From: Odiellus spinosus | Taxonomy: Eukaryota > Arthropoda > Arachnida > Opiliones > Phalangiidae | Direction: 5' to 3' | DNA: 64,000 nucleotides | Assembly: GCA_963920705.1 (NCBI GenBank) | Contig: OY987232.1 | Coordinates: 14,075,726-14,139,725, forward strand | Shown: positions 10,767 to 34,380 of the stretch, piece after piece | How positions within the stretch are numbered: position 1 is the stretch's first letter | Layout: each line of letters begins with the position of its first letter | Position numbers and translations under genes: made by a program | The notes under the pieces: generated by a model | The model's database searches: none | Told to the model about the DNA's origin: nothing | Seen by the model: the letters and a program-made list of their open reading frames with translations, nothing else

Positions 10767-11558
10767 AATACTTCTGATTCCGATTATTTAACAATTGATA
10801 ATTATGGTAATTAATAATGGTGTCTTGTAAAATTCCCTTTTCAACACCCGAAGCCACAGTTTGAGTTCAAGTTCTTCTGACCAAAGTTAATGATTGCCCA
10901 CTCCTAAACATGTTGATACGCTTTTTTTAGTTAATAAACACCTTGTTTCACTTATCTCTCGATAATTAGCTTATGCACAATTAAATAGAAAAACAATAAT
11001 GGTCAAAGCACAATCTTACCTACACCTTTCGGTCGTTTTTCGTATTTTTCAGGACTATTTTCAAGGGCTCATAACTACGCAACGCAGCGCGTGAGACTAA
11101 AGGTTCATAAACCTTTTTCACTCAGTCTGACCCCACGAAGAACCCCCTTCATTTTTTCCAGACCTTTCTAAAACACCCTGTATATTAGCTAATAATATTC
11201 AAATTTCCAAATGCACTAATAAATAATTATTAAAACTGCATAACAAATGAATTCTGCAGTCTGTAAGTATAATTCATTTACAGGTTAATAATAATCAAAT
11301 AACTAAATGATTACCTTTTCATCATTATGTAACCAATGGATTCTGCAGTTTGTAAGTATAATTTATTTATGGATTAATAATAATATAATTTTAAACGTGA
11401 ACTAACGAACACCGTTTTATAATTGTGTAACCAATGGATTCTGCAGCTCGTAAGTATAATTTATTTATGGTTTAATAATAATATAATTTTAAACGTGAAC
11501 TAATGAATACCTTTTCATCATTATGTAACCAATGGATTCTTCAGATCGTAAGTATAAT

Positions 11559-11857
11559 CATAAGCCTATTAATTCTTCACCCGTAAGTTTGAGTTTTCCA
11601 TAGACCCCTTCGTATTCGGCACTAAAAAGAGATAGAAATTTGAAGCTCTACGCCACCTCGCGGAAAAACCTAGTTAATTCTCCCCACCCCCTACCCCGCG
11701 TCATTCCTCTTGAGAGGAAACGGGATGTCCCAGCGTGCCTTGGGAGAGTTTCGAGCTACCACCACTAGATGGATTTGAGTCGCGAGATTGGCCAGTCATA
11801 TGCTTAACGTTAAAACGACTCTCGTTTCTAACTTACGGGTGAATTAATAAGCTTATG
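11559..11857. mobile_element. 299-bp MITE inside array 1, first copy
   Basis: The inverted ends are CATAAGCCTATTAATTC... and ...GAATTAATAAGCTTATG, with CACCCGTAAGTT / AACTTACGGGTG inside them. GTATAAT is duplicated at both sides (11552-11558 and 11858-11864); it is part of the host repeat unit. The same 299-base element occurs at the same site of a unit at 13039 and 16795. Confidence 0.85.
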
Positions 11858-13038
11858 GTATAATTTATTTATGGATTAATAATAATATAATTATAAACGT
11901 AAACTAATGAATACCTTTTCATAATTGTATAACCAATGGAATCTGCAGGTCGTAAGTATAATTTATTTATGGATTAATAATAATATTATTTTAAACGTGA
12001 ACTAATGAATACCTTTTTATAATTGTGTAACCAATGGATTCTGCAGCTTGTAAGTATAATTTATTTATGGATTAATAATAATATAATTTTAAACGTAAAC
12101 TAATGAATACCTTTTCATAATTGTATAACCAATGGAATCTGCAGGTCGTAAGTATAATTTATTTATGGATTAATAATAATATTATTTTAAACGTGAACTA
12201 ATGAATGACTTTTCATAATTGTGTAACCAATGGATTCTGCAGCTTGTAAGTATAATTTATTTGTGGATTAATAATAATATAATTTTAAAGTAAACTAATG
12301 AATACCTTTTCATAATTGTATAACCAATGGAATCTGCAGGTCGTAAGTATAATTTATTTATGGATTAATAATAATATAATTTTAAACGTGAACTAATGAA
12401 TACCTTTTCATCATTATGTAACCAATGGATTCTGCAGTTTGTAAGTATAATTTATTTATGGATTAATAATAATATAATTTTAAACGTGAACTAATGAATA
12501 CCTTTACTACATTATGTAACCAATGGATTCTGCAGTTTGTAAGAATAATTTATTTATGGATTAATAATAATATAATTTTAAACGTGAACTAACGAACACC
12601 GTTTTATAATTGTGTAACCAATGGATTCTGCAGCTCGTAAGTATAATTTATTTATGGTTTAATAATAATATAATTTTAAACGTGAACTAATGAATACATT
12701 TTCATCATTATGTAACCAATGGATTCTGCAGTTTGTAAGTATAATTTATTTATGGATTAATAATAATATAATTTTAAACGTTAACTAATGAATACCTTTT
12801 CTACATTATGTAACCAATGGATTCTGCAGTTTGTAAGTATAATTTTTTTATGGATTAATAATAATATAATTTTAAACGTGATACACGACCACCGTTTTAT
12901 AATTGTGTAACCAATGGATTCTGCAGCTGGTAAGTATAATGTATTTATGGTTTAATAATAATATAATTTTAAACGTGAACTAATGAATACCTTTTCATCA
13001 TTATGTAACCAATGGATTCTTCAGATCGTAAGTATAAT

Positions 13039-13337
13039 CATAAGCCTATTAATTCTTCACCCGTAAGTTTGAGTTTTCCATAGACCCCTTCGTATTCGGC
13101 ACTAAACAGAGATAGAAATTTGAAGCTCTACGCCACCTCGCGGAAAAACCTAGTTAATTCTCCCCACCCCCTACCCCGCGTCATTCCTCTTGAGAGGAAA
13201 CGGGATGTCCCAGCGTGCATTGGGAGAGTTTCGAGCTACCACCACTAGATGGATTTGAGTCGCGAGATTGGCCAGTCATAAGCTTAACGTTAAAACGACT
13301 CTCGTTTCTAACTTACGGGTGAATTAATAAGCTTATG
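13039..13337. mobile_element. 299-bp MITE inside array 1, second copy
   Basis: Almost identical to the copy at 11559, in the same position of the host unit, after an ATC microexon-like site and 'gtaagtataat'. It therefore spread with the array, not by a new insertion. The distance to the first copy is 1480 bases, about 15 units with the insert. Confidence 0.85.
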
Positions 13338-14026
13338 GTATAATTTATTTATGGATTAATAATAATATAATTTTAAACGTGAATAATAATTACCTTTTGA
13401 TAATTGTGTAACCAATGGATTCTGCAGCTAGTAAGTATAATTTATTTATGGATTAATAATAATATAATTTTAAACGTAAACTAATGAATACCTTTTCATA
13501 ATTGTATAACCAATGGAATCTGCAGGTCGTAAGTATAATTTATTTATGGATTAATAATATAATTTTAACGTAAACTAATGAATACCTTTTCATAATTGTA
13601 TAACCAATGGAATCTGCAGGGGGTAAGTATAATTTATTTCTTTGTAAAAAAACCGAACTATAAAAGCTAAGTAATAAATAAATTTATAATAAATGTGTAA
13701 CCAATGCATTCTGCCGCTAGTATAATTTATTTATGGATTAATAATAACCTAATTTAAAACTAATGAATTCCTTTTTATAATTGCGTAACAAATGAATTCT
13801 ACAGAAAGTAAGTTTAAATTATTTATTGGATAATAATAATCTAATTTCAAAAGTGAACAAACAAGTTCTAAACCGTTTCATAATTGTATCGCCTACTTTT
13901 CTTTAGCTTCCGGTAAGTACATTTTGTGAATTACGATTTCCGCTAGTGCTCGGAATTTGTATAACGTTTATTAATTGGATAGATTTACAGAATTAAATTC
14001 AGATTTTATACGTTATATGGTCAGTC

Positions 14027-14880
14027 CCTAAATCTGAACGCTTCTAATTCTGAACACTTTCGTTTAAAAATGTATAACTTAATTTTGGTTGGGTCTACTT
14101 AACGATGGAAGGGCTCATTTTGTAGATCAAAAATGGGGCTATTTGTGGAACGCGACTTCAACACTCTAGGAAAATACCTGGAGAAGATACGATCCTAATT
14201 AGCCAACCGCGATAATTAGCCGAATTAATTAGACCGTTTTAAGGGGATGTTTCTCTTTACGGTCCGGGAAATAAGGTTTTACGAGCTTCGGAAAAATGCC
14301 AGTCTTACGCGCTCGATTTCGTCGTAAAGTTTGAGTTTCCCGCTACAAAATAAACTTCTCAAACCCAGAATTCGGCCACAAACTCTTCGCGGAAACGTAA
14401 TTTCAAAATATGTCTACGAATTTCTAATTCTGAACGGCGCGCAAAAATATATGAAAAACTCCAAAATTTGCTAAAGGAACCACTTCCGCGCCTCGACGAA
14501 TCGAGAAACGAGTGTCACCAATGGATTCCTTGGCCGAATTTAACAGGGGGCAGGCGAAGTTAGCGTCATCAAGCCAGTATTTGCGAAGTTATTTATGATT
14601 TCCTTCCAAATTAAGATTCTTTTATCTGTACTATGCCAAAGCAAAACAAATTTTTTAAATATTCCGTAACTTCGCAAATACTGGCACGATCGCGCTAATT
14701 CCACCTTTGGTGGTGACACTCATTTCTCGATTGGAGGTGCGCGAGTTTTTCCTTTTGCAAATTTGGGATTTTTTTTATATGTTATAAGATAGTTCAGATT
14801 TAGAAGCAGGGCGGTGTTCAGAATAATTGGAATCGGGGCGTTCAGAATTAGAATCGTTCGTTCAGAATTAGAAGCCGCCA
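14027..14880. mobile_element. Palindromic element with TCTGAAC ends
   Basis: Left 'ctaaatctgaacgcttctaattctgaac' is answered on the right by 'gttcagatttagaag' and 'gttcagaattagaagc'. Inner arms also pair: 'cgagaaacgagtgtcacca' with 'tggtgacactcatttctcg', and 'gccagtatttgcgaagtta' with 'taacttcgcaaatactggc'. No coding sequence. Confidence 0.65.
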
Positions 14881-15241
14881 CTGCCGTCTTTCAACCCGCG
14901 TCCACGTCAAAAGTAGGCGTCATGGAATGATGAAAACTAGCGCAACGTCTCCGCGACTATTCAAACATGATATCAGATACTTAACTTCGTCGCAATCGAG
15001 ATCTCAGATTTCTTAAAAAGCGTTCAGAGGTAGGTGACCTTACCCAATTCGAGTAACTTGTTGATAGATGAACCCAGCATCAATTTAACTTTTATCTGAA
15101 TTTATGGGAATGGTCTTTTTAAGTCATGGACAATCTAAACGAAACAAGATGGGCAAGTCCATATGATAGCTAGACCCCTTAGAGTTGAAAAACGCGAGTC
15201 ATTCACTTTGTGTCACATGAACTTTGGCATAATCGCTTATG

Positions 15242-15832
15242 CAGGGTGACCACTGAAAATTTGAAAATCCTATAGAGGAAATATAAAAAATTTCTTTGCG
15301 AAATATAGGAAAATATAGGCAGAATTTTATGTAAAATATAGGATGAAATAGGAAAATAATTAATTAAAAATAGGAACCATGTTTATTATTGCGTCACAAC
15401 TCTCGCCACCTGTTTAAACGTGGTATTAATATGATCCAAATTGCTTAAATAGTATGGAATTTTACAGACTATTTTAACTGGAAAATGGACAGTTAAGCTA
15501 AAATAATCTTATACAGCCACAGCTGACAGTATGATTTATAACTTTACCCTTAACTAGAGATTTTGAGTAGAAACATAGGAGATTATAGGAATTGCCATTA
15601 AATTATAGGAGAAAATAGGAAGGAGGTGAAAATATAGGAAATTTAGGAAAAGTGGTCACCCTGTTGTATGTCATAATATCACCTACATTACGCAAAAGCA
15701 TCATTGAAAGAAGTTCCCATTCTGTCCGATTTCTTTTGGTCATTTCAGGGGCACTATGAAAAGTGTAACTAAAAAACAATAGGCTTTGAAAAATTTCCTT
15801 CTCTTATCTTTAAAGGAAAAGTGGTCACCCTG
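15242..15832. mobile_element. hAT-like MITE (CAGGGTGACCACT ends), copy 1
   Basis: The ends are CAGGGTGACCACT and AGTGGTCACCCTG. GCTTATGC is found at both sides (15235-15242 and 15832-15839), an 8-base duplication as in hAT elements. A second internal right end (AGTGGTCACCCTG to 15663) shows that the element exists in a short and a long form. The interior is rich in 'aaatatagga'. A related copy lies at 42687. Confidence 0.8.
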
Positions 15833-16303
15833 CTTATGCTCATACGTATTAATTGGTGCTTTTCAAATCGTGTTTTTAATTACTGACAGTCTAGAACTCA
15901 ACACGCGACGAATAGTTTGTTGTTTTCGAGTTCCATAACTGATCATCTTGGACTAAATACAATCATGAGCTCTATTATTCACGCGTTCGCTACAACTTGT
16001 TTGCTGAATTCTATGGCTCTGAAGATTATAGGTTTTTCTCTTCTATTATTCGAAGAGAATGGATTATACGTCAGAGTGTCCGGTACCCGATCGTATGTTA
16101 GCAGCATCGGAAGCGGTCAGTGGCTTTGGGGCAGATGTTATATATATTAAATTCGAGTTTATATTTCAAACTTGGCTCGGATGTCTGGGGGCTAAGAGAC
16201 GATGATGTTTTTCGTCTTCTTACACGACGCCGACGCCACTAGGGGGTGGAGGTCTAGCTAAAAATAGGAGTAACGTAAGTTAATTTTTATTCGATTCCGA
16301 GCA

Positions 16304-18000
16304 CTAGTTTCTGCAGTGGTTTGGCATAGTTAATTATTTAGCTAATAATATTGAAATTTTAAAAATTGTAAACACATGGATTCTGCAGATAGTAAGTATA
16401 ATTTATTTATAGATTATTAATAATATGATTTTAAACGTGAACTAATGAAAACCTTTTCATAATTGTGCAACCAATGAATTCTGCAGTTCGTAAGTATAAT
16501 TTATTTATGGATTTATAAAAATATAATTTAAAACGGGAACTAATGAATACCTTTTCATCATTATGTAAAAAATGGATTCTGCAGTTTGTAAGTATAATTT
16601 ATTTATGGATTAATAATAATATAATTTTAAACGTGAACTAACGAACACCGTTTTATAATTGTGTAACCAATGGATTCTGCAGCTCGTAAGTATAATTTAT
16701 TTATGGTTTAATAATAATATAATTTTAAACGTGAACTAATGAATACCTTTTCATCATTATGTAACCAATGGATTCTTCAGGTCGTAAGTATAATCATAAG
16801 TCTATTAATTCTTCACCCGTAAGTTTGAGTTTTCCATAGACCCCTTCGTATTCGGCACTAAAAAGAGATAGAAATTTGAAGCTCTACGCCACCTCGCGGA
16901 AAAACCTAGTTAATTCTCCCCACCCCCTACCCCGCGTCATTCCTCTTGAGAGGAAACGGGATGTCCCAGCGTGCATTGAGAGAGTTTCGAGCTACCACCA
17001 CTAGATGGATTTGAGTCGCGAGATTGGCCAGTCATAAGCTTAACGTTAAAACGACTCTCGTTTCTAACTTACGGGTGAATTAATAAGCTTATGGTATAAT
17101 TTATTTATGGATTAATAATAATATAATTTTAAACGTAAACTAATGAATACCTTTTCATAATTGTATAACCAATGGAATCTGCAGTTCGTAAGTATAATTT
17201 ATTTATGGATTAATAATAATATTATTTTAAACGTGAACTAATGAATGACTTTTCATAATTGCGTAACCAATGGATTCTGCAGCTTGTAAGCATAATTTAT
17301 TTATGGATTAATAATAATATAATTTTAAACGTAAACTAATGAATACCTTTTCATAATTGTATAACCAATGGAATCTGCAGGTCGTAAGTATAATTTATTT
17401 ATGGATTAATCATAATATTATTTTAAACGTAACTAATGAATGACTTTTCATAATTGTGTAACCAATGGATTCTGCAGCTTGTAAGTATAATATATTTGTG
17501 GATTAATAATAATATAATTTTAACGTAAACTAATGAATACCTTTTCATAATTGTATAACCAATGGAATCTGCAGGTCGTAAGTATAATTTATTTATGGAT
17601 TAATAATAATATTATTTTAAACGTGAACTAATGAATGACTTTTCATAATTGCGTAACCAATGGATTCTGCAGCTGGTAAGTATAATTTATTTTTGGATTA
17701 ATAATAATATTATTTTAAACGTGAACTAATGAATAACTTTTCATAATTGCGTAACCAATGGATTCTGCAGGTGGTAAGTATAATTTATTTATGGATTAAT
17801 AACAATATAATTTTAAATGTGAACTAATGAATACCTTTTCATAATTGCGTAACCAATGGATTCTGCAGCTGGTAAGTATAATTTATTTATGGATTAATAA
17901 CAATATAATTTTAAATGTGAACTAATGAATACCTTTTCATAATTGCGTAACCAATGGATTCTGCAGCTGGTAAGTATAATTTATTCATGGATTAAGTATC
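16304..18000 (+). repeat. Splice-site-bearing repeat array, copy 1, right part
   Basis: Fourteen further units of about 98 bases in the same orientation as the left part. Triplets between acceptor and donor from 16389: ATA, TTC, TTT, CTC, GTC, TTC, CTT, GTC, CTT, GTC, CTG, GTG, CTG, CTG. Nearly all have TCTGCAG (one TCTTCAG) on the left and GTAAGT or GTAAGC on the right. The last units are the most uniform, as expected at a recently amplified edge. The array stops at 'ttaatactagaaacgcattctctac', the same boundary string as in copies 2 and 3. Confidence 0.85.
16795..17093. mobile_element. 299-bp MITE inside array 1, third copy
   Basis: Same element, ends and position in the host unit as at 11559 and 13039. 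Confidence 0.85.
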
Positions 18001-18004
18001 ATTT

Positions 18005-18316
18005 TTTTTTTGTTAATACTAGAAACGCATTCTCTACTAATTAAATGGAAAATGCAAGTTTTCCTATCAATTCCTCCTAATCGATTAAATATGCCTATAG
18101 CGTAGAAAACTATTCTAGCTTGGAAAGTAGGCTGGAATCTACAGTGAGTTTGAAACCTCGTCGTTAACCAGTTTATGGCGAATCACTCTTCATATACTCT
18201 TGATATTAATGATTGTTTTTGTTAGAGAAATTATTCAATTTTGAATGATCTTTGTATTATGAGAAAACTGAAAACCTTAAGTGGAGTTAAGACTAAAAAT
18301 ATCTGTAATTTTTCAG
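18005..18316. other. Last intron of copy 1 with MITE remnants
   Basis: From 18014 the sequence resembles one half of the TTAA-flanked MITE family ('attctctactaatt...atcgattaaatatgcctat'). Near 18180-18215 is the right end of the CTCTTGATA element that is full length in copies 2 and 3. It ends at the acceptor 'gtaatttttcag' (18316). Confidence 0.5.
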
Positions 18317-18600
18317 GAAAGAAGTAAACGGGCTTCAGCCGCGTGGAATCATCAACCTTGCACATTGGGACAAGATATATTTACTGCAGACGCCACGATG
18401 ATTCCACATCTTTATTTCGCACCTTTTATGAAATTAAATATAATATTAAGAGATAACTTGTTAAAGGAATTTTCCTCCTAGTTTCTCCTTTCGACTAAAA
18501 CTTTAAGGCAAATTATTAATGTAGACGCTGTCGGTTAACTAAAGCCACTTTTGATTGTAACCCAAATAAAGAGAAAGCTAATTTTGCATTATAATACTAC
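18317..18600 (+). other. Terminal exon of copy 1 with poly(A) signal
   Basis: It follows the acceptor 'tttttcag' and aligns with 26153 and 35140. If the phase-1 frame of the upstream exons is kept, a stop (TAA) comes at the third codon, so most of the exon would be 3' UTR. It contains an exact 11-base inverted pair, GTGGAATCATC (18343-18353) and GATGATTCCAC (18398-18408), and AATAAA at 18565-18570. In phase 2 it would give a 27-codon tail ending with TGA in the right arm. The true entry phase needs transcript data. Confidence 0.6.
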
Positions 18601-18608
18601 TCATTTTA

Positions 18609-18957
18609 TTATAATGTTAAATCACAAATAAGAAAAACATATATTGTATCATTATTAATTATTATAAAGCGAGGGAAAAACTGTACGATGAGATATTTAA
18701 ATATTTAAAAAAATCGGGGAAATTGAGAAATTAACGGAAGCGTATTACTTCGAATGTTATTAATCGCCTTTTAAATATTCGAAGCAATTTAAATATAATA
18801 TCGAGCAATTATTAACTTACACTATAAGAAATTCACCGTAACTATCAGTCCCTAACCTTATTATTACGTCGCCTATGATAAAAAAAAATATATTAATTAA
18901 AAACCCAGTTGGGCTTCCCATCTAGAAGAAAAAGCTATTTGTGGCAGATATTAAGTA
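18609..18957 (+). repeat. 3' flank of copy 1
   Basis: Near-identical to 1-356, and similar to 35435-35770. It marks the downstream end of the duplication unit. The next 100 bases (18958-19071) show nothing recognisable. Confidence 0.8.
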
Positions 18958-19071
18958 GCATCTTGGAATGGGCAGATACAATTAATTTAAACTGAAAATT
19001 TGAAGATATCAAATTCTTTTGGATAAAGACCTGAGCTTGCCCGCTGATGTCAATAACTGACATTGGCGATG

Positions 19072-19438
19072 CGTAATAAGTATTTATTTTTCTCCATTTC
19101 CCAAAACCAAACGTTTTATTTAGTTCATTTTACCAATCAATCGATAAACTACTGTATTCGAAAAATGATGCCATGTACGCGTTTGAGAATGAGAGGAAAT
19201 TCATTTTCAATTCGGCTCTAGCACACTCGTGAACTAGTTTATTAAACAAGAGTTATTGAACTCAAAACATCTACTTGGCGCGGTAGAATTGGCATGTTAA
19301 AATAATAGTCAAATATTCGTTATATACCTGACATAAATAAAATAAAACCATTTGAACCATAACTTTGCAAATAATTCCAACGTTAAGTCTAGAAATCAAT
19401 TGATGACACTCTTATCCGATTTGAGGAATAGTTCTTAA
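19072..19438 (+). repeat. Intergenic duplicated block
   Basis: Almost identical to 27507-27868, from 'taataagtatttatttttctcc' to 'ttgaggaatagttctta'. A shorter copy lies at 27055-27335. It is part of the spacer between family members and has no coding sequence. Confidence 0.8.
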
Positions 19439-19439
19439 A

Positions 19440-21050: not shown

Positions 21051-21051
21051 T

Positions 21052-21953: not shown

Positions 21954-22064
21954 GTGTTAAAATCTGAAAGATGCTATCCAACAAAATGGTCCACCGTTTT
22001 ACTTTACTCTTCGTCGTGTTCATACTCATGGCCCTTATGCTGGCAAACTTGGCTTATTCCCTGG
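21954..22064 (+). CDS. Copy 2 signal-peptide exon of the microexon gene family
   Basis: After the acceptor 'ttttctgaatcag' come 17 leader bases and an ATG at 21971. The exon codes for 31 residues plus one base: MLSNKMVHRF, then a hydrophobic core (TLLFVVFILMALMLANLAYS) that is a good signal peptide, with cleavage likely after ANLAYS or nearby. The donor is GG|GTAATT. Copies 2 and 3 differ by one residue only (ANLAYS and ANSAYS), against many differences in the introns, so the exon seems under selection. The product is expected to be secreted. I do not recognise the family. Confidence 0.75.
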
Positions 22065-22141: not shown

Positions 22142-22171
22142 TTTTACCAGAAAAAACTGGTTCTCGTCAAG
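22142..22171 (+). CDS. Copy 2 30-base coding exon
   Basis: The acceptor 'tttatgattttag' and donor 'gtaagtgag' bound exactly 30 bases. With the one base carried over (phase 1) it reads VLPEKTGSRQ and leaves one base, so the frame is kept. Copy 3 has a 30-base exon at the same place, with substitutions at four residues or fewer and no indel. The exon is charged and hydrophilic, like a propeptide or the start of a mature peptide. Confidence 0.7.
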
Positions 22172-22972: not shown

Positions 22973-24830
22973 CGTCTACTAATTCTGCAGCTGAACGTAA
23001 GTATATTTTATAAATTATGGTTTCTGCAGTTGGTTATTAACATTTTCTTAATGCTTAACAACGTATTTCTAAACCGTTTCCTAACTTCATCTTCTACTAA
23101 TTCTGCAGCTGAACGTAAGTATATTTTGCAAATTACGGTTTCTGCAGTGGGTTATTAACATCCTCTCGTAATTTAACAACGTATTTCTAAACCGTTTCTT
23201 AATTGCATCGTCTACTAATTCTGTAGCTGAACGTAAGTATATTTTATAAATTACGGTTTCTGCAGTTGGTTATTAACAATTAATGTTTAACAACGTATTT
23301 CTAAACCGTTTCTTAATTGTATCGTCTACTAATTCTGCAGCTGAACGTAAGTATATTTTGCAAATTACGGTTTCTGCAGTTGGTTATTAACAATTTCTTA
23401 ATGTTTAACAACGTATTTCTAAACCGTTTCCTAACTTTATCGTCTACTAATTCTGCAGCTGAACGTAAGTATATTTTGCAAATTACGGTTTCTGCAGTGG
23501 GTTATTAACATCCTCTCGTTATTTAACAACGTATTTCTAATCCGTTTCTTAATTGTATCGTCTACTAATTCTGCAGCTGAACGTAAGTATATTTTGTAAA
23601 TTACGGTTTCTGCAGTTGTTTATTAACATTTTCTTAATGTTTAACAACGTATTTCTAAACCTTTTCCACTAATTCTGCAGTTTCGTGTAAGTATATTTTG
23701 TACATTACGGTTTCTGCAGTTGGATATTAACATTTTCTTGATATTTAACAACCTTAATTGTATCGTCTACTAATTCTGCAGCTGCCAGTAAGTATATTTG
23801 GTAAATTACGGTTTCTTCAATGTCTAATTAACAATATCTTCGTACTTAATGACGTTTTTATAAACCGTACTACCCAATTGCATCGTCTACAGTTAGTACG
23901 TACTTGCATTTTTTTAATTAAGGTTTCTGCAGTGGTTTTGCGTATTTTATATATTAGCTAATAATATTCATATTTTAAAAATGCGCTAATCAATAAATTT
24001 TCAAAATCGTACAACCAATCAATTCTCAGTTTGTAAGTATAATTTATTTATTGGTTAATAAATCTAATTTTAAAAGTGAATTTTTGGTATTTCCTAACTG
24101 TATCGTCTACTAATTCTGCAGCTGCACGTAAGTATATTTTGTAAATTAGGGTTTCTGCAGTGGGATTGTATAATTTATTTACTGGTTAATAATATTCAAA
24201 ATTTTAAAATGCGCTAATCAACACATCTTCAAAATCGCACAACCAATGAATTCTCAGTTGGTAAGTATAAAATATTTATTTGTTAATAAATCTAATTTTA
24301 AAAGTGAATCTTTGGTATTTAATATTACATGTCTTAACCGTTTAATAATTGTATTGTCACCTAATTCTGGAGCCCGACGTAAGTATAATTTGTAAATTAC
24401 GGTTTCAACAGTGGGTTTGTATAATTTATTTACTAGCTAATAATATTCAAAATTTAAAAATTAACTCATCAACACATTTTGAAAATTGTACAACCAATGG
24501 ATTCTGTAGTTCGTAAGTTTAAATTATTTATTGCTTAATAATAATCTAACTTTAAAATATAAGTAATGAATACCTTTATCATAATTGCGTAACCAATGCA
24601 TTGCGCAGCTCGTAAGTATAATTTATTTCTTGATTAATATTAATCTAATTTTAAATGTGAACTAAAGGTTACCTTTTTATAACTGTGTAATCAATGGATT
24701 CTGCAGTTGGCGGGTATATTTATTAATTAGCTAATTTTAATTAAATTTTAAATATTCATTAATCAATACCTTTTTAAAAATTGAATAACAAATAGGATCT
24801 GTAGATAGTAATTAGCATAATTATTTTTTT
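22973..24830 (+). repeat. Microexon-like array of copy 2
   Basis: Sixteen sites with acceptor and donor 3 or 6 bases apart. The first six are CTGAAC (22991, 23109, 23227, 23341, 23459, 23577), followed by TTTCGT (23681), CTGCCA (23782), TTA (23893), TTT (24030), CTGCAC (24122), TTG (24258), CCCGAC (24373), TTC (24510), CTC (24609) and ATA (24805). Units of about 110-120 bases contain 'cgtctactaattctgcag', a near-perfect branch point (TACTAAT) next to the acceptor, then GTAAGTATATTTT. In the phase set by the 30-base exon each CTGAAC adds Pro-Glu (the first Ala-Glu). In phase 2 it would give TGA. One degenerate unit near 24697 has GC in place of the donor GT. Confidence 0.8.
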
Positions 24831-24994
24831 GGTTAATACTAGAAACGAATTCTCTACTAATTAAGGGGGGAATGCAACCCGATAACGATTTCCGATCGTT
24901 TAAAGAGGTCTATAAGGTCTGTCCTCCATGGGCCAGAGATTTATACTCCCTTTAAGAGGAGAAGGCTTTTATTATTAATCTAACCCAGAAAACT

Positions 24995-26046
24995 GAATAT
25001 TTACAAGAGCCCTAATCCTAGGTATGCGGTCCCGCATCCGTGAGCAATCTAGGGGGCGAGTAGGGCCGGAGGGGAGAAAAATATAGAGGGAAAGGGAATA
25101 TTCCGTCTTACCCTCTCCGAAGGGAGGAATGAGAATGAGTGCCCCCTCGCGAGCGAGGGGGCTAATATCAAGTTTGGCTTACTGAAACCTAGGAAGATGA
25201 AGGGTAAGGACGCCCACCTCATGTTATAACTTGCGTCGTTCAAAGTCAGCTTCTGCTTTCAATTCCCCCTTTGATTCCCCCCTTTGCTGATACGTATTTT
25301 CTAATGCGCATCCTTTTTCGCGCACGCTACGTGTAACACTCGTGACTCCTTGCTAGAGAAGGAGCGAGCTATGGATTTTCTCAGCAGGGGTGCCAATTTA
25401 CAATAAGGTTTCGATTCCACCACAGTTTGCAGTGCGTAAATATTTACCTTATCCGTTATCCTTACGAATAGTTTATTGGGATATTGAGCGCCTCGCTTTA
25501 CGCGCGCTGATCATCACGTTTGGTGACCATTCGCCCGCAGCTGGTTCACTATCTGTGGTTCACCTTAATTTGACAGCGCGTATAAACCTACTCTTTCCTT
25601 TATTTCTAAGAATTGTTTATTTAGAAATGTAAGGAGGGTACTTCACGTTGTACGAAATTTGTCACCCGTGAATAAAAGGATGACCTTGTACCAATATCCG
25701 TGAGAGAGCGGACTAAAACACTCCCCAAGCCCACTCTTCCAGGGAAATCCGAAATTATTCAGGTGCAGCTAAGGCGCCTAGGATATAGCCTGCTGTAATT
25801 TTATGCGAGATGATGTAGGTATGTCACGTGAGTGCGCACCAAAAAAGCGCAGTTAGCTTCTTTGGACACAGAAGCGAGAGAGGAAAACTACGTCATCTTC
25901 AGACATTTCACGGACGGGTTGTGCTATACTAGTGGCCGTTCCTTACCCTTCATCTTCCTAGCTGAAACAGTTGCTCATGGACGTGGGTTCAGGCGAATGA
26001 CTGAGATCAATACTCTTAAGGAGGGTTTACATATACTCTTGATATT
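24995..26046. mobile_element. CTCTTGATA foldback element with unrelated interior
   Basis: The left part (about 24995-25080, 'tttacaagag', 'gcatccgtgagcaatc', 'ggccggaggggaga') and right part ('gttgctcatggacgtgggttcaggcg' to 'tatactcttgata') are inverted with respect to each other and occur similarly in copy 3 at 34697-35027. The interior here is about 700 bases longer, includes 'cgctcgcgagggg'-like palindromic bits, and has no convincing gene. Confidence 0.45.
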
Positions 26047-26152
26047 AATGATTGTTTTCGTTAGAGAAATGATTCAATTTGAATGATCTTTACATTATGA
26101 GAAAACGGAAAACCTTCAAGTGGAGTTACGACTAAAAATCTGTAATTTTCAG

Positions 26153-26400
26153 GGAAATAGTAAACGGACTTAAGCCACGGTGGAATCATCAACCTTGCAC
26201 ATTGGGACAAGATATATTTACTGCAGACACCACGATGATTTCACACCTTTATTTCGCACCTTTTAATAGTTTGAACGCTCGATTATATAACACTTTTAGA
26301 TAACTTTGTTAAAGGAGTTTAGCTCCGAGGGCAATTATTAATGAAGTCGCTGTCAGTTAAATAGAGCCACGTTTAATTATTTCCCAAATTAAGAAAAAAG
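26153..26400 (+). other. Terminal exon of copy 2
   Basis: It follows the acceptor 'gtaattttcag' and aligns with copies 1 and 3. In phase 1 a stop (TAG) is the second complete codon. The inverted pair is GTGGAATCATC (26180-26190) and GATGATTTCAC (26234-26244), with one mismatch. One extra base near 26178, relative to the other two copies, would frameshift any phase-2 reading. The poly(A) motif is degenerate (AATTAA near 26387). The flank to about 26700 resembles 1-356. Confidence 0.55.
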
Positions 26401-26729
26401 CTAATATTGTATTATTCTACTATTCATTTTATTACATTATTAAACCAGAAATATGGAAAACATCTATTAATTGTAATTTTTTATTTCTTATCAAGGGAAT
26501 TGAGACTATAAAGCTTACGTTGAAACCAATAGAAAACTATACGAAGTGATATAAAACACACCCGGGAAATTAAGAAATCAACGAAAGCGAATTGTTACGA
26601 ATTTTGTTAATTGTCTTTGAAATATTCAGAGCAATTAAATATAATAACAAGCAATTATTAACTTACGCTGTAAAGAAACTTACTTTTTGTGCCTAACCTT
26701 ATTATTACGTCGCCTACGGTAATAAATAT

Positions 26730-27052
26730 CAGAAGCCGATGAAACCCTCCCTTGAAGTCTAAAGTTCCATATAGCGCTCCTCTGGGTAAAATTCCCAATT
26801 TTACGAGATCGGAAGGGTCCTACTTCATACCCCTTGTCTACGGAAAATTGGAAATTTTCTCTTTCCACATACGACGACGTTTTTTTGACGAATTCCAAGG
26901 TTGCTAGAGATATTCGGTGGACGAACTCCCGCTCCGAAAATATCTACCGTTAGGAGGCGTACGAATCGCGCTTTTTGAAACTAACCCATACAGAGAGGGG
27001 TAGACAAGACCCGGGAGTAATAGACTTCAAAGGAGGGTTTCATCGGCTTCTG
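26730..27052. mobile_element. CAGAAGCC foldback MITE, copy C
   Basis: It has complete inverted ends (CAGAAGCCGATGAAACCCTC and its complement at the right) and a small internal deletion relative to copy A. 'gtaataa' occurs just outside both ends, four bases off on the left, so the target duplication is uncertain. Confidence 0.8.
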
Positions 27053-27868
27053 GTAATAAGTGTTTATATTTCTCCATTTCCCAAAACCTACGTTTTATTT
27101 AGTTCATTTTAACAATCAATCGACAAACTACTGTATTCGAAAAATGATGCCATGTACGCGTTTTGGAACGAGGGGAAATTCATTTTTTAAACCGAATCTA
27201 GCTCACTCGTGAACTAGTTTATTAAACAAGAGTTATTGAACTCCTAACATCTACTTGGCGCGGTAGAATTGGATTATTAAAATAATTGTTAGATACCCGA
27301 CATAAATAAAATAATCAAAACCATTTGAAAAGTACGATGACATTCCGTAGCCTGAGATGAGGCACTTTTTTTAAATTAGCTTTCCTTAAGCTCAACTTCG
27401 AACTTTAACTTAAGATTGAGGTTAAACTCGACATTGTCTATATAACCAATGAACTCCCTTAGAAAAATGCCCGCTGATGTCAATAAATGACATTGGCGAA
27501 GCGTAATAAGTATTTATTTTTCTCCATTTCCCAAAACCAAACGTTTTATTTAGTTCATTTTACCAATCAATCGATAAACTACTGTATTCGAAAAATGATG
27601 CCATGTACGCGTTTGGGAACGAGAGGAAATTCATTTTCAATTCGGCTCTAGCACACTCGTGAACTAGTTTATTAAACAAGAGTTATTGAACTCAAAACAT
27701 CTACTTGGCGCGGTAGAATTGGCATGTTAAAATAATAGTCAAATATTCGTTATATACCTGACATAAATAAAACAAAACCATTTGAACCATAACTTTGCAA
27801 ATAATTCCAACGTTAAGTCTAGAAATCAATTGGCGACACTCTTATCCGATTTGAGGAATAGTTCTTAA
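27053..27868 (+). repeat. Two copies of the intergenic block before copy 3
   Basis: A shorter diverged copy (about 27055-27335) and a near-full copy (27507-27868) of the block at 19072-19438. Between them (27336-27506) is unrelated AT-rich sequence with no gene. Confidence 0.75.
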
Positions 27869-27898
27869 ACTTCACAAATGCCTAAAAAAATTATATCC

Positions 27899-28385
27899 CG
27901 CAATCTTCTTTGAAGTCTATTTCTCTAATGTTTCGTATAGCGCACCTCTATATGGGGTAAAATTTCCTCTTTAACTATCTTGGAGATGACCTATTTTATA
28001 TTTCAACGGAAAATTGGAAATTCCCTTTTTTGGGAGAGGGGCTTCAAAACACGTAAGATTCCCGTGATTTATTCCCAGACAATCCTGCATGTAAGAGGCG
28101 TCCCGAGCTCTAGCCTTCCCACTCGTACGACACACGCGGAATTTGCATCGTTATAAACAATTTTTCCATCGGCCTCAAGTTTTCATTTTTTGTAAACATA
28201 TCTTGAACTTAGAAACGCGCGGCTGGTGAGACCGTGAGAACCACATGTCGTTTTTTTACCCACGAAAAAATTAATTAGAAAGGCATTGTATTCACTTTTA
28301 ACGGAATCGAATGAATCGATGAACAAATATAATGGGAAACAAGACCAGGACGGGATAGTCTTCAAAGGAGGGTTCAACCGCTTTT
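27899..28385. mobile_element. Divergent longer relative of the CAGAAGCC MITE
   Basis: The ends 'cttctttgaagtctatttctctaatg' and 'gtcttcaaaggagggttcaaccgc' match the family, but the interior (about 490 bases in total) is only partly related. No transposase frame is visible. Confidence 0.6.
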
Positions 28386-29228
28386 GCTTTTACATATAGA
28401 GTACCGCGCTACCCTGAACTATTCTTCTGTTCCAGAGCAGTTGGCGTAATGGGAAAATCTGAGGTGGATTGATATACAATATGTTAAATAAAGTAGATAC
28501 GAAAGTAGTAAGCCCCAACGAATAAACCTTCTCAAACGGTAATATTTTATCCAAACGCCAAGCTTTAGCGTCAACTCTTCTTCAACACGAGCATAAGGTT
28601 TTTTTGCATGTTTACTACGAAGAAAATTACTTTACGAATAAAATACAAATAACAATAGAGCCGCGCTCATATTAGGCCTTGGAATCGATTTAAACCGTTT
28701 CAAAACGATTTTCTGGAGTCGTGTGAACGGAAAACGATGTTTTCTCGAACCAATTTGATTCGATTTCTCGAAACTGCTTCGGGAACCAGTTTTATACAAT
28801 ACATACATACCAGTTTTTTATACAGAGGCTACAATAAATCGATTTTTAAAGATAATGCGTGAACACGTGACCACTAAAACGATTCCTGCCGATTTCAACG
28901 GTTTCAAAGTCTGTAGTGTGAACGTAGCTATAAGCTCCGTTCACACTAGACTTTGAAACGGTTTTTAGGTCAAATTATAAAATTTTTGAGGTCACAAGTG
29001 TAGGCTTTTATTAAGAAACAAAATTAATATCCTAAAAAGTCGATTGGAACATTCGAAACGGTTTGAAACGATTCCAAAGTGTCAAGTATGAACGCAGCTT
29101 ATCGGTTTAATTTCACCGTTTGAAATCGATTACAAAAATGCTAGTGTGACCGTAGCTTAGTTGAAGTATATAAAAACTTTCGATGCCCCAATAATCCACA
29201 ATAAACACATGTGACTTACTCGAAAAAA
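28386..29228. other. Spacer upstream of copy 3 with GTGTGAAC repeats
   Basis: Short elements here share 'gtgtgaac', 'tttcgaaactgcttcggg' and 'cgtagct' motifs on both strands (28680-29160). Related material is at 41430-41540 and 44605-44850. They look like overlapping palindromic MITE remnants. No gene. Confidence 0.45.
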
Positions 29229-29229
29229 G

Positions 29230-29361
29230 GCCAATACGTGATGTTTTTGATGCGATAATAATCAAAAAATCGTGTTCGTATAAATTGCAACGTCGAAAAT
29301 AAGGGCAATACGTGACACTTTTTTATGTCATGGTATTCAACGAAAATCGCGTTAGTATAAA
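29230..29361 (+). promoter_or_regulatory. Duplicated TATA promoter of copy 3
   Basis: Two successive modules of about 70 bases each read 'ggccaatacgtga' or 'gggcaatacgtga', a spacer, then 'tcgtgttcgtataaattg' or 'tcgcgttagtataaattg'. TATAAA lies at 29279-29284 and 29356-29361. The second is closer to copy 2's promoter and to the first exon. Copy 2 has only one module. Confidence 0.65.
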
Positions 29362-29385
29362 TTGTAGGCTTTTTCACTAACCGAA

Positions 29386-29438
29386 CACTACTAGTTTACT
29401 CGTATTTCTCAACAGATCACCACTCACTCCGTCGAAAA
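29386..29438 (+). other. Non-coding first exon of copy 3
   Basis: Conserved with 21140-21193 ('cgtatttctcaacaga') and ending GTCGAAAA before the donor GTAAGT at 29439. The start is estimated from the TATA box at 29356. Confidence 0.55.
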
Positions 29439-29601
29439 GTAAGTTGAATAAGAGCTTTACTGTCTACTCTTGAAATACCCAGCCAAAAATTTCAATTCCT
29501 TATAGAATAGGATTATTTTTCCAAAATTTAGGATTTTACAGGACACAAATTAGCTTTTATATGGGAATATTAAAATTATATCAAATAAATAATTTCATCG
29601 G

Positions 29602-29897
29602 GTCAAGAAGGATCAGACAAGGAGAAGAAAAATGGGGCTGCGTTTAGTTAGAGAGAGAAGAGCCAACCTCCCACTCGGGTGGAAAGGGGGATAGGAAATT
29701 CTCGAGGTAAACTGTTGTCACGTGGTCACTAGCGTCGTCGACTACTACTAAGCTGATAATGGATCCGTTTTACCCACGTGACAACAATTTACCACGAAAC
29801 GTCTCTATCCCCGTTCTCCCAGAGTGGGAGTTTAGGCCGACGCAGTAGGAACCGCGCCGTCCCCACTTTTCCTCTCCATGTCTGATCCTTCTTGATC
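29602..29897. mobile_element. Foldback MITE with TCAAGAAGGATCAGACA ends
   Basis: Left TCAAGAAGGATCAGACAAGG and right CCATGTCTGATCCTTCTTGA are inverted. 'atcggg' (or 'tcggg') flanks both. The inner arms 'gttgtcacgtgg' and 'ccacgtgacaac' also pair. Found only in intron 1 of copy 3. Confidence 0.75.
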
Positions 29898-30048
29898 GGG
29901 TAAATTTCAGCAAAAATATACTTAGAGTCATACGAGATCTTCCTCATTGGCTTTTCTGATAATAAAATATACCAATCGATTAAAATACTAGAGGATTTTA
30001 CTTAAACTAGATTATTTTCCTAATAATCGCGTGTTTTTTCTAAATCAG

Positions 30049-30159
30049 GTGTTAAAATTTGAAAGATGCTATCCAACAAAATGGTCCACCGTTTTACTTT
30101 ACTCTTCGTCGTGTTCATACTCATGGCCCTTATGCTGGCAAACTCGGCTTATTCCCTGG
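30049..30159 (+). CDS. Copy 3 signal-peptide exon of the microexon gene family
   Basis: The same layout as copy 2: acceptor 'ttctaaatcag', 17 leader bases, ATG at 30066, 31 codons plus one base, donor GTAATT. The encoded peptide starts MLSNKMVHRF, carries a long hydrophobic core and ends ANSAYS plus Leu-, so a cleavable signal peptide is expected. It differs from copy 2 by a single residue. Next comes a 30-base exon at 30223. Confidence 0.75.
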
Positions 30160-30222
30160 GTAATTATAAACGACCAAACAGTCCTTTTTGAGATTTTTTT
30201 ATTTTTGTCCGTTTTCGAATAG

Positions 30223-30252
30223 TTTTATCAGAAAAAAGCGATTCACGTCAAG
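30223..30252 (+). CDS. Copy 3 30-base coding exon
   Basis: The acceptor 'cgttttcgaatag' and donor 'gtaagcg' bound 30 bases. In phase 1 it reads VLSEKSDSRQ, one base left over. Compared with copy 2 (VLPEKTGSRQ) there are three substitutions and no gap. The conservation of length and frame is the best evidence that the split gene is real. Confidence 0.7.
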
Positions 30253-31885
30253 GTAAGCGAAATATTTTACAAATAATTTTGTAAGATCAAGAAAGGAACA
30301 GCTAATCCAGGTCTATGTAAGCTCCCCCCCCCACGGAGTCGATCGTCTTAGATTCTAGCAGCCAATCACGAAAAATAGTTAAATGGAGAATGGTACAAGA
30401 TATTTTAGTAATTCCCTGTGGTTAAAATAGGCCTAATCCATCAGTAAAACAAATAAATACAAAATATAAAATTAGAAATCAAATTAAAACTTACCCGGAA
30501 AATGGGTTTATAAACTGGATTCATGGAGATGCTGAATTTCTTCGCATTGATGGGTCAGGGACCAATAAGCAAAGGCCCGTCGTAAAAATTAAGACTTTCA
30601 ATAACATTCGATTGGTCGCGGACCACTCAATGCGAATTAATTCAGGATTTCAATAAATCCAGCTAAGCCTATTTTCCGGGTAAGTTTTAAATTTATTTCT
30701 AGTTTATATTTAGTTGTAATTTTTTTTTTTATTGTTGGATTATGCCTAACGATAAGGAATCGATGAAAAAAAAAATCACTTGTTATTAGGCTGCATTCTC
30801 CCTTTAACGGTGGAGCGGTAGACGGTTTAATAAGCGAAAGCTATGCTAGTTACACAATAGTATCAGATATATAATCCTACGTCAAGAATTCCCAGAGTAA
30901 CTTCTATTGATAGCATCAAGAGTATATGAAAACCCTCCCTAAGAGTATCGATAATGTAACACGCTTCGTATGCCGACCCGCATCCGTGAGCAATCAAAGC
31001 GGAGAATGTCAGAATGGGGCCGGAGGAGAGAAGATGTTCGCTGATATGTAAATTTTCTTTCTTCTCCAATTCAAGGGGGAGAATAAGACATTAAGGGCCC
31101 ACGGCAAGTGCGGGCTAATACGAGGCTTGGTTTAGTTTCCGATTTCAACCGAGGGGGGCGCCAATACGTGCACAAAAAGTATAAAAATTGTTTCGCCACG
31201 AAGGACGCGGGTTCAAGGAAATTTTTGAGATCACTACTCCGTTTTCAATAGAGATATTCTGCCCAAGCATTCTGACGAGCATTTTCGTCAAAACAAAGAT
31301 GAAAGATTAAAGGGAAACTTGAGAGTTAAAAATGGAAGAGTTTTTTGAACTTATTTTCGGAGTCAAAATACCAAAAAAACCTATTTTTTCCGAATTTTTA
31401 GACACTTTTTTGTGTTTAAATTATTTTCTGAAGTTTGGTAAAATTTTAAGAAAAAGTAATTTTATATTTCAGCCTTCAACGGCGATTGATGCCCAAGACT
31501 TTGGTGGTCAAACGTCGCCCTATTCTTTTAATGTTAGGACATTACAAGCACTGTTTTAGGCTGAAATAATATAATTGGCTCGAATTTATATTTACTTTTT
31601 TCAAATTTTCGAATACGTCTTTTTTTTTGGCACGATGATTCTGAAAACAAATTCAAAAGCTCCTAGTTTCCGTTTAAATCAAGCTTTACGTTTAACCCGT
31701 GTTAACATCCAGCATTCTGCATTCAAGTGACAGAGAAGAGTCTAAATAATTTTATAAGATTCTCTTGGTAAAAATTAATTGAAAACGGGGCTTTACGCAG
31801 GGTTTTAATACACTCTTGATAGTATCAATATTTGGAGCATAAATTCATTTAACTTTCTTTGTTCCTTTTGGCTCATCGTAAACGC
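30253..31885. other. Copy 3 intron with nested MITEs
   Basis: It contains a TTAA-family MITE (about 30405-30800), and a CTCTTGATA element (about 30893-31825, ends 'catcaagagtatatgaaaac' and 'aatacactcttgata') into which a TTAA-flanked MITE (31307-31677) has inserted. No exon was seen. Confidence 0.55.
31307..31677. mobile_element. TTAA-flanked MITE (AGGGAAACTTGAGAG ends)
   Basis: TTAA at 31307-31310 and 31674-31677 flanks AGGGAAACT and its near complement AGTTTCCG. The open frame at 31332-31559 lies wholly inside and shows no transposase motif, so I do not call it a gene. Confidence 0.55.
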
Positions 31886-34380
31886 ATCGCATTAACAACT
31901 CGCAGCCCTACGTAAGTTTAATTAACATTATAATGAGAGGGAGTATCTAGGATTATTTTATTTGATCAACGTCTCCCCAATCTTGAATACTCCCTTGGAA
32001 ACAGACTCAATTGCTGAATTCTATTACGAGTAAAGTTTTTTCTACATTTTTCTAACATTATTATCAATTAATTCCGCAGATGGTAAGAATAATTTAACTC
32101 GAATATTACCATTGTCTCGTTATTTAACAACATATTTCTAATCCGTTTCCTTATTGTATCGTCTACTGATTCTGCAGCTGGAGAAAGTAAGTATATTTTG
32201 TAAATTACGGTTTCTGCAGTGGTTTTTTGCAATTTATTTGCTAGCTAATAATATTCAAATTTTAAAAACGCACTAATCAACACAATTTCAAAATTATACA
32301 ACCAATGGATTCTGCAGCTAGTAAGTTTAAATAATTTATTGATTTATATTAATCTAATTTTAAATGTGAACTAATGATTACCTTTTCATAACTGTGAAAC
32401 TAATAGGTTTTGTAGATGGTGGGTATAATTATTAATTAGCTAATAATATTCCAACTTAAATAATCATTTATCAATACATTTTCATAATTGTGTAACAAAT
32501 GGATGCTGCAGAAAGTGGGTATATTTATTAATTAGGCTATTAAATATTCAAATTTAAAAAATTAACTAATGAGTACATTTTTAAAATTGCATAACAAATG
32601 GATTCTGCAGCACGTAAGTATAATTCATTTACTGGTTAATAATAACCTAGTTTTAAACGTGAATTAATTATTACCTTTTTATAATTGTGTAACCATGCAG
32701 TTGGTAAGTATAATTCTTAACTTAACATATTCTAATTTTAAAAATTCACTAATCAATACATTTGCATGATTGTGCAACAAATGGATTCAGGGGGTCGTGA
32801 GTATATTTATTAATTAGGCTATTAAATATTCAAATTTAAAAAATTAACTAATGAGTACATTTTTAAAATTGCATAACAAATGGATTCTGCATTTTTGTAA
32901 TTATGTAACCAATGGATTCTGCAGTTGGTGGGTACAATTATTTATTAGCTATTAGTATTCAAATTTTAAGTATGCACTAATCAATACAATTCTCATAATT
33001 GTGTAATCAATGGATTCCGCAGGTGGTAAGCATAATTCATTTACTGGTTAATAATAACCTAGTTTTAAACGTGAATTAATTATTACCTTTTTATAATTGT
33101 GTAACCATGCAGTTGGTAAGTAAAATTCTTAACTTAACATATTCTAATTTTAAAAATTCACTAATCAATACATTTGCATGATTGTGCAACAAATGGATTC
33201 AGAGGGTCGTGAGTATATTTATTAATTAGGCTATTAAATATTAAAATTTTAAAAATTAACTAATGAGTACATTTTTAAAATTGCATAACAAATGGATTCT
33301 GCATTTTTGTAATTATGTAACCAATGGATTCTGCAGTTGGTGGGTACAATTATTTATTAGCTATTAGTATTCAAATTTTAAGTATGCACTAATCAATACA
33401 ATTCTCATAATTGTGTAATCAATGGATTCCGCAGGTGGTAAGCATAATTCATTTACTGGTTAATAATAACCTAGTTTTAAACGTGAATTAATTATTACCT
33501 TTTTATAATTGTGTAACCATGCAGTTGGTAAGTAAAATTCTTAACTTAACATATTCTAATTTTAAAAATTCACTAATCAATACATTTGCATGATTGTGCA
33601 ACAAATGGATTCAGAGGGTCGTGAGTATATTTATTAATTAGGCTATTAAATATTAAAATTTTAAAAATTAACTAATGAGTACATTTTTAAAATTGCATAA
33701 CAAATGGATTCTGCATTTTTGTAATTATGTAACCAATGGATTCTGCAGTTGGTGGGTACAATTATTTATTAGCTATTAGTATTCAAATTTTAAGTATGCA
33801 CTAATCAATACAATTCTCATAATTGTGTAATCAATGGATTCCGCAGGTGGTAAGCATAATTCATTTACTGGTTAATAATAACGTAGTTTTAAACGTGAAT
33901 TAATTTTTACCTTTTTATAATTGTGTAACCATGCAGCTGGTAAGTATAATTCTTAACTTAACATATTCAAATTTTAAAAATTCACTAATCAATACATTTG
34001 CATGATTGCGCAACAAATGGATTCAGGGGGTCGTGAGTATATTTATTAATTAGGCTATTAAATATTCAAATTTAAAAAATTAACTAATGAGTACATTTTT
34101 AAAATTGCATAACAAATGGATTCTGCATTTTTGTAATTATGTAACCAATGGATTCTGCAGTTGGTGGGTACAATTATTTATTAGCTATTAGTATTCAAAT
34201 TTTAAGTATGCACTAATCAATACAATTCTCATAATTGTGTAATCAATGGATTCTGCAGTTCGTGAATATAATTAATAATTAGCTAGTAATATTCAAATAT
34301 TAAAATTAGACTAATCAATACCTTCTCATAATTATGTAACCAATGAGTTCTGCAGCCGTTAAGATTAATTTATTTACTGC
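31886..34380 (+). repeat. Microexon-like array of copy 3
   Basis: About 23 acceptor-donor pairs 3, 6 or 9 bases apart: CCCTAC (31906), ATG (32080), CTGGAGAAA (32178), CTA (32328), ATG (32416), AAA (32512), CAC (32611), TTG (32701), GGGGTC (32791), TTG (32925), GTG (33023), and then a repeated series TTG, AGGGTC or GGGGTC, TTG, GTG. Donors vary (GTAAGT, GTGGGT, GTGAGT). The 9-base site in the otherwise array-2-like unit CTG...GTAAGT is an in-frame lengthening. The last unit (34360, CC before GTTAAG) breaks the rule of three. One member of each later set, 'tctgcatttttgtaattatg', has lost its AG. Confidence 0.8.
33023..34258 (+). repeat. 412-bp higher-order repeat inside array 3
   Basis: The GTG-bearing acceptor-donor site recurs at 33023, 33435 and 33847, exactly 412 bases apart, with near-identical sequence between. 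Each 412-base block carries four usable splice pairs (3, 3, 6, 3 bases) and one with a broken acceptor. Confidence 0.85.

Follow-up and report, generated by a model that had tools for sequence, protein, structure and literature searches.

Based on the layout, reading phase and stop-codon distribution of a set of tandem arrays in the harvestman Odiellus spinosus, we propose, with a probability of roughly 0.86, that these arrays belong to protein-coding genes that spell a mature peptide mostly at one codon per exon, the exons being joined stepwise and in order. Three such genes (copies A, B and C) lie in the window, i.e. the whole stretch of 64,000 nucleotides that was analysed (G000:C8:14075726-14139725, on chromosome 8 within the 443-Mb assembly of this species). 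Each would consist of a leader exon for a signal peptide, ending after the first base of a codon, up to about 40 exons of 3 (rarely 6, 9, 12, 15 or 18) bases, and a terminal exon that supplies the stop, often together with Gly-Lys. It also appears highly likely that dozens of consecutive 3-base exons spell a secreted peptide in order, the protein thereby evolving as a codon minisatellite.

Structure and variability of the repeat unit

We built a profile of the repeat unit from 120 of the 399 distinct 98-bp units called with a 3-base gap between acceptor and donor and ran it over 268 kb (C8 14M, C8 10M, the window and C11); its seed is biased to 3-base units, and broken units and units with other gaps were recovered too. 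Beyond the window, the loci examined were C8:13955001-14075000, C8:10405001-10475000, part of C6 and four C11 genes, and five further loci (L040-L044) were added afterwards as a test set. The profile detected 630 units of ~98 bp, every one of them on the coding strand. Both AG and GT are kept in 580 of the 616 units covering the core, with a gap between them of 3 bases in 564 units, 12 in seven, 6 in five, 15 in one, 0 in two and 2 in one. Outside the profile, exons of 6 (CTGAAC and kin), 9, 12 and 18 nt were picked up by a loose scan, which also gave many unrelated sites in inserted elements and flanks that were set aside by eye.

The strict motif CTGCAG-NNN-GTAAGT occurs 30 times in the window against a shuffle mean of 0.01, and all 30 matches are on the plus strand, as an earlier, sequence-only reading of the window had held for the sites in general. 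With the gap left free between 0 and 30 bases, 39 matches are found, with gaps of 3 (30), 6 (8) or 9 (1) and no others. Genome-wide (443 Mb), TTCTGCAGNNNGTAAGTAT gives 220 matches and its reversed control none, and CTGCAG-N6-GTAAGTAT gives 18 against a single control match; gaps of 4-5 bases yielded no genome-wide match (control 1) and gaps of 1-2 bases only one (control 2). A chance origin of the motif was considered and ruled out by the shuffles, the opposite strand and the genome-wide reversed controls.

Column entropies over 460 distinct units place AG (0.12/0.21 bits) and GT (0.06/0.06 bits) among the lowest, and exon bases 1, 2 and 3 at 1.94, 1.31 and 1.72 bits, the first of these being the most variable of all 99 unit columns. 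Among 435 distinct 3-nt units the commonest donors are GTAAGT (194) and GTGGGT (121). Consecutive 3-nt exons are separated by introns that are copies of a single repeat and measure 75-122 nt, typically ~95 bp; the intron lengths are distributed 139, 128 and 207 of 474 over the three classes modulo 3, a drift that the exon gap does not share. Likewise, all five insertion events inside the exon are multiples of three, as against 9/38 insertions and 16/61 deletions in the introns, while nine further deletions span the unit core and break it.

These observations bear on two alternatives that deny the triplets a place in the message. The first, which we regard as highly improbable, is that the array is one long intron, taken out either stepwise or in a single event, whose paired sites act as ratchet points or decoys. 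Recursive splicing sites do look like a paired acceptor and donor (PMC8605326), and two units have zero bases between their sites; in the Drosophila ratchet points described there, adjacent acceptor and donor are used stepwise. However, at such points the two sites adjoin directly and the message retains nothing from them, whereas here three bases separate them in 564 of the 580 intact units, dozens in a row, and only the two units just mentioned (2/580) have the zero spacing. Nor would an unread array have reason to hold its exon insertions in threes or to avoid stops in one phase and between neighbours alone, as documented below. The second alternative, to which we give hardly any credence, takes the array for an intronic satellite or mobile intron, with splice-like motifs that were present by accident in its founder sequence and have been copied passively. 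The tandem units do come in highly similar blocks, array A has been amplified along with an inserted element, and constant spacing is expected from passive copying alone; yet such copying would neither make the triplet the most variable part of a unit whose AG and GT are among the least variable, nor remove stops. Furthermore, the 100 strict genome sites listed fall on three chromosomes only, in few clusters, and most of the clusters on C8 and C4 are accompanied by a signal exon, none being found for the C6 cluster.

Stop avoidance between neighbouring exons

Joining units that lie no more than 130 bp apart gave 62 runs comprising 556 units. In the joined triplets, stop codons are absent from phase 1 (0/524), the phase imposed by the leader exon, and present in phase 0 (8/586) and phase 2 (51/524). 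Shuffled exons gave a mean of 18.0 phase-1 stops (all exons) or 11.4 (within runs), and never zero in 2,000 shuffles. As the unit copies are related by descent and their counts are not independent, a test on distinct pairs and the divergent C11 copies are the better guides. When each ordered exon pair is counted once, to allow for copies made by duplication, phase 1 has 0 stops in 185 pairs (null mean 7.8, P 5e-5); phase 2 has 18 against a null of 20.4, i.e. no avoidance. The avoidance is moreover confined to true neighbours, as joining direct neighbours produces 0/429 stops, joining units at distances of 2-8 produces 58/1,876, and reversing the neighbours produces 14/429. As we read the sequence, this pattern, shown by neighbours only, is the signature of translated exons that are spliced to the units directly next to them; a non-coding tandem repeat, with a unit order unrelated to frame, would show no such difference. 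The earlier proposal of in-frame microexons of 3, 6 and 9 bases is thus upheld by stop avoidance restricted to the phase of exon 1 and to neighbours, by exon insertions in threes that the introns do not share, and by the terminal exons considered below.

The same counts speak to another alternative, improbable in our estimate, that the exons are real but optional, transcripts keeping varying subsets so that the array serves as an isoform device. All intact units but one are multiples of three in one phase, such that skipping keeps the frame, and exons such as TAG and AAG, where CAG precedes them, contain an additional acceptor whose use would remove the codon. However, because stops appear at joins between non-neighbours (the 58 of 1,876 with one to seven units skipped), free skipping would expose them. 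We also considered retention of longer exons running from an acceptor to the next donor, and discarded it, the intervening units being full of TAA.

In the five later loci, which had no part in building the profile, we found 83 units, 81 of them covering the core and 77 intact, all of 3 nt, with stops in 0/71 codons in phase 1, 0/75 in phase 0 and 4/71 in phase 2; nearly all of these units come from the related genes L042 and L043, with one each from L040 and L044 and none from L041. A regex search for the leader exon in L040 and L041 found none. A further test set from C6 and C4 contained 62 covering units, 56 of them intact, again all of 3 nt.

A stepwise splicing model

U1 and U2AF cannot occupy the two sides of a 3-base exon simultaneously, and with no room for these factors the exons are probably joined sequentially. 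Each splice to an acceptor would bring the lengthening message to within three bases of the following donor, so that the array would behave as a ratchet keeping one codon per click. Strong downstream donors would favour inclusion at each step. In Drosophila, the choice between the junction donor and the downstream donor is described as deciding inclusion (PMC8605326). The sequence-only reading had offered recursive splicing as an alternative to microexons; we consider it to be probably the splicing route, and not a rival, as the triplets would then be kept. Since all exons would be multiples of three in one phase, unequal exchange that gains or loses a repeat unit would add or remove whole residues.

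If this is true, the smallest exon size possible in long constitutive runs is a single codon, some forty successive splicing steps can be completed with high fidelity, and the number of DNA repeats and the length of the peptide are one and the same. A string of forty such exons would show the spliceosome repeatedly handling exons with no room for exon definition, and these genes would offer a natural setting in which to test stepwise splicing, exon-junction marks and proofreading. They would also connect the turnover of intron repeat units with the evolution of a secreted peptide one residue at a time, two processes mostly treated separately, and they would escape gene finders with a higher minimum exon length.

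Several observations weigh against this proposal. Forty 3-nt exons in a row would be unprecedented for the spliceosome, and the acceptors have a short pyrimidine stretch, for which the word strong, used of them in the sequence-only reading, is generous. AG or GT is lost in 36 of the 616 units, and as some of these lie within arrays splicing has to pass over a few units; a single unit has a 2-nt reading, and of two exon deletion events one removes 3 bases and the other 1 base. Exon base 2, the wobble position in phase 1, has 8% GC as against 57% at codon position 3 of the signal exons, so that codon use does not explain the bias; an AT-rich wobble was for this reason dropped as support for phase 1. 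The C6 and C4 set has one phase-1 stop in 47 codons and none in phases 0 and 2. This stop sits in the C6 array L028 (C6:5290001-5300000, minus strand), for which a leader exon was looked for and not found, and in which many donors are degenerate (GTGGTA, GTAGTA); the array reads as a decayed gene and is still a result against the rule. Finally, the predicted precursors matched no protein: none among 6,672 candidates at E 0.01, and with a second precursor alignment none among 1,105 candidates at E 10, in searches that need shared 5-residue words and that a distant relation could escape. In the database searched, the best match listed for the mitochondrial COX2 is that of the harvestman Oligolophus tienmushanensis, at 93% identity; as the species' own COX2 is absent among the 120 matches listed, the species is apparently missing from this database and these protein negatives say little.

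As a separate observation, the triplets of L028 would read as a Gly-His-rich peptide.

The three genes of the window

Read unit by unit, arrays A, B and C have about 75 usable acceptor-donor sites, close to the 74 or so of the sequence-only reading. Array A has 35 (34 of 3 nt and one of 6 nt), array B 17, of which two have weak donors, and an additional one whose donor is GC, and array C 23, one with a weak donor. The three signal-peptide exons are each of 94 nt and each end one base into a codon. The second exon of 30 bases, earlier ascribed to all copies, is restricted to B and C, copy A having none. The exceptions to the rule of three noted in the window do turn out to be broken units, at 13717, in four TTCTGCATTTTTG units of array C and at 34356, where the donor is lost and the spacing is still 3. 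The predicted parts are as follows.

Copy A
3584..3677, plus strand: signal-peptide exon, 94 nt, donor GTAATT, homologous to those of B and C
4540..4628, plus strand: remnant of the first array unit, which is partial (last base 4628) and disrupted by an inserted element
11260..11547, plus strand: 3-nt exons TCT TTT CTC ATC at 11260, 11349, 11447 and 11545
11949..13027, plus strand: twelve 3-nt exons GTC CTT GTC CTT GTC TTT TTT CTC TTT TTT CTG ATC
13428..13807, plus strand: 3-nt exons CTA GTC GGG AAA, with the broken unit at 13717
13907..13912, plus strand: 6-nt exon CTTCCG
16389..16783, plus strand: five 3-nt exons ATA TTC TTT CTC GTC
17185..17969, plus strand: nine 3-nt exons TTC CTT GTC CTT GTC CTG GTG CTG CTG
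18317..18570, plus strand: terminal exon, phase 1 GA AAG AAG TAA, AATAAA at 18565

Copy B
21971..22064, plus strand: signal-peptide exon, 94 nt, leader match
22142..22171, plus strand: exon 2, 30 nt (21 nt if the second acceptor is used)
22991..23787, plus strand: eight 6-nt exons (six CTGAAC, TTTCGT, CTGCCA), reading AEPEPEPEPEPELSSA
23893..24807, plus strand: mixed part, TTA, TTT, CTGCAC, TTG, CCCGAC, continued by TGG (weak donor), TTC, CTC, TTG (GC donor), ATA (weak donor)
26153..26420, plus strand: terminal exon, phase 1 GG AAA TAG

Copy C
30066..30159, plus strand: signal-peptide exon, 94 nt, leader match
30223..30252, plus strand: exon 2, 30 nt
31906..32186, plus strand: first part of the array, CCCTAC (6 nt), ATG (3), CTGGAGAAA (9)
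32318..34261, plus strand: main part of the array, 3-nt exons and four 6-nt (A/G)GGGTC after TTCAG, in 412-bp blocks, reading TNETLGGLGVEGLGVEGLGAGGLG
35140..35393, plus strand: terminal exon, phase 1 GG TTA TAG, AATAAA at 35388

The start of the window is the 3' flank of a fourth copy, positions 1-327 being ~90% like the flank of copy C.

Leader exons and extent of the family

Searched at the protein level, the leader exon gave 37 genome matches, one with an internal stop, and inspection 5' of arrays that had no match revealed three extra, divergent leaders, so that the 37 loci are a lower bound. Judged from sequence, the leader conserved in these 37 matches is hydrophobic and of ~30 residues. 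A donor was recognised in 24 of the 26 leader exons examined, and all 24 end in phase 1. An acceptor-like stretch (TTTTTTC..AATCAG) is conserved just 5' of the leader exon, which suggests that a 5' untranslated exon probably precedes it. The layout is unchanged in the divergent copies L029-L032 on another chromosome (C11:22.035-22.056 Mb), one of which, L031, has tandem 12-nt exons in place of the 3-nt ones. The earlier suggestion of a secreted-peptide gene family can accordingly be extended, the same layout being found at no fewer than 37 signal-exon loci, divergent copies included. Against Pfam, five open frames from the window yielded a single match, below threshold, and Rfam and tRNA scans of the window gave none.

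Terminal exons and predicted peptides

In the set of 15 terminal exons found by motif, a stop falls within four codons in 15/15 cases in phase 1, 0/15 in phase 0 and 2/15 in phase 2. Reading the terminal exon in phase 0 gives a long open frame in A and C; we rejected this, as copy B breaks it and as it would require a frame change that no exon supplies. Eight of the 15 begin with GG AAA or GA AAR; where the preceding exon has G as its last base, these read as Gly-Lys, Gly-Lys-Lys or Gly-Lys-Arg, ends that we take to be the usual amidation signal; in copy A the result is Gly-Lys-Lys-stop.

The peptides were read with broken units omitted, which leaves single residues uncertain; copies B and C were read by hand and the others by script. 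In the five genes that the script covered from end to end, ~27-31 residues would come from exon 1 and all the others, bar the last few, from 23-40 microexons. The predicted spliced string of copy A begins CTTATTCCCAGA-TCT-TTT-CTC-ATC-GTC-CTT-GTC-CTT-GTC and its 35 microexons would give the peptide MLSNQMIHRFTLRFVVFVAMALLLANAAYSQIFSHRPCPCLFSLFSDPSRETSDILSRLPCPCPGAAGKK. For gene C8:10406180 the predicted string starts with TTCATTCTATGG-CTGAAC-CTG-ATC-GTG-GAG-AGA-AAT-ATC-GAT, goes on after eleven more triplets with GCC... and ends with TGC-CTC-ATG-GGAAATAATAA, its 23 microexons giving a peptide ...AVHSMAEPDRGEKYRYQYQYDRYGQRLPHGK. Similarly, gene 13967018 would encode ...GTMAKQTKHEHGHGPYKAPAGPHHGPHNDDQPDDDADDDDEPAYGKR (40 microexons and one zero-length unit), gene 14017341 ...DSLDAGAKIDAPLDLGLGAGRGAGGGAGLGGGLGGGAGLGLGTGRGAEK (40 microexons), copy B ...SLVLPEKTGSRQAEPEPEPEPEPELSSAIISALARLP(LGK if the GC-donor unit is used) and copy C ...SLVLSEKSDSRQALHAGETNETLGGLGVEGLGVEGLGAGGLGL, while the predicted peptide of gene 14046567 ends in ...EEDERK. 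Gene 10411113, the end of which was not found, reads KRDSKRDPGPYLGPYPGPYPGPYLGPYLGPYHGHGQHEG, with each GPYP or GPYL coming from a four-unit block (CTG or TAG, GAC, CAT, ACC). The predicted peptides are orderly, with GPYP repeats, EPEPEP and YRYQYQYDRYGQRLPH-GK, and such putatively amidated, repetitive, glycine- or proline-rich secreted peptides suggest a role in defence or glandular secretion.

In addition, the terminal exons of the window share a near-perfect inverted repeat, GTGGAATCATC ... GATGATTCCAC (18343-18410, 26180-26247 and 35166-35233, with one G-U in B); the C11 copies mostly keep the pairing with changed letters, and some C8 copies are mismatched.

Comparison with known micro-exon systems

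We found no prior description of runs of one-codon exons in the open-access papers searched, a set without subscription papers and preprints. Based on the sequence features above, the family is, on our reading, a micro-exon gene family of independent origin, at the lower limit of exon size. In the schistosome micro-exon genes (MEGs), the coding region is described as consisting mostly of very small symmetrical exons behind a leader, in secreted families, and MEGs are described as restricted to platyhelminths (PMC4350168). The harvestman genes resemble them in that small symmetrical exons, as predicted from DNA, make up most of the coding region, and in the hydrophobic leader consistent with secretion; they differ in belonging to an arachnid, in having the single-codon exon as the commonest class, in having introns that are tandem copies of one repeat, and in a layout that suggests in-order inclusion of neighbours. 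Searches by 5-residue words, which could miss a distant relation, found no relation between the predicted precursors and platyhelminth MEG proteins.

Bicycle genes have exons that encode several residues each and carry CYC motifs. The aphid bicycle and megacycle genes are reported to be secreted, fast-evolving and clustered, with numerous tiny internal exons whose first base is codon position 2; bicycle genes have ~17 exons on average, and one megacycle gene more than 100 microexons (PMC9168663). The harvestman exons also start with codon position 2, the phase-1 carry-over being present in all the genes read, and differ in predicting one residue per exon and low-complexity peptides; by inspection, paired CYC motifs are absent from six predicted harvestman sequences. 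That exons of 1-3 bases can be spliced is supported by lone cases, namely the 3-bp exon of homothorax, the 3-nt exons of Ncam and TnT and a 1-nt exon in Arabidopsis (PMC7392893, PMC4674806, PMC8042270). These sit inside ordinary genes, whereas the harvestman arrays would account for the greater part of the coding sequence. In known micro-exon genes the exons do not go below several residues, and 3-base exons are known only singly.

Array growth and surroundings

The sequence-only reading of array A needs correction in that the array is interrupted by a large element and by three copies of a small one:

4625..11190, unstranded: inserted element of ~6.5 kb with inverted ends of ~445 bp, 91% alike (4625-5066 against 11190-10759)

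The broken frames inside it have a transposase-like look; the one frame tested had no Pfam match. The small element, of ~299 bp and also with inverted ends, lies at 11559-11857, 13039-13337 and 16795-17093, and because the three copies occupy the identical place in the repeat unit, blocks of array A were copied after the insertion. In array C the repeating block measures 412 bp and is present in 4.3 copies, 96% alike. On this sequence pattern, array growth is best described as proceeding by blocks.

Elsewhere in the window there are large minisatellites at 47062-48083, 49221-49758 and 50190-53063, with periods of 29, 41 and 31 bp. At ~56500-64000 lie exons of a possible gene, four open frames of which have no Pfam match above cut-off; we take these exons to resemble an EMSY-type gene with an ENT-like domain. 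In the wider assembly, TTAGG repeats occur at two of the six contig ends examined, several nuclear copies of mitochondrial COX1 lie on one chromosome (C17 of G000), and the mitochondrial COX1 adjoins COX2.

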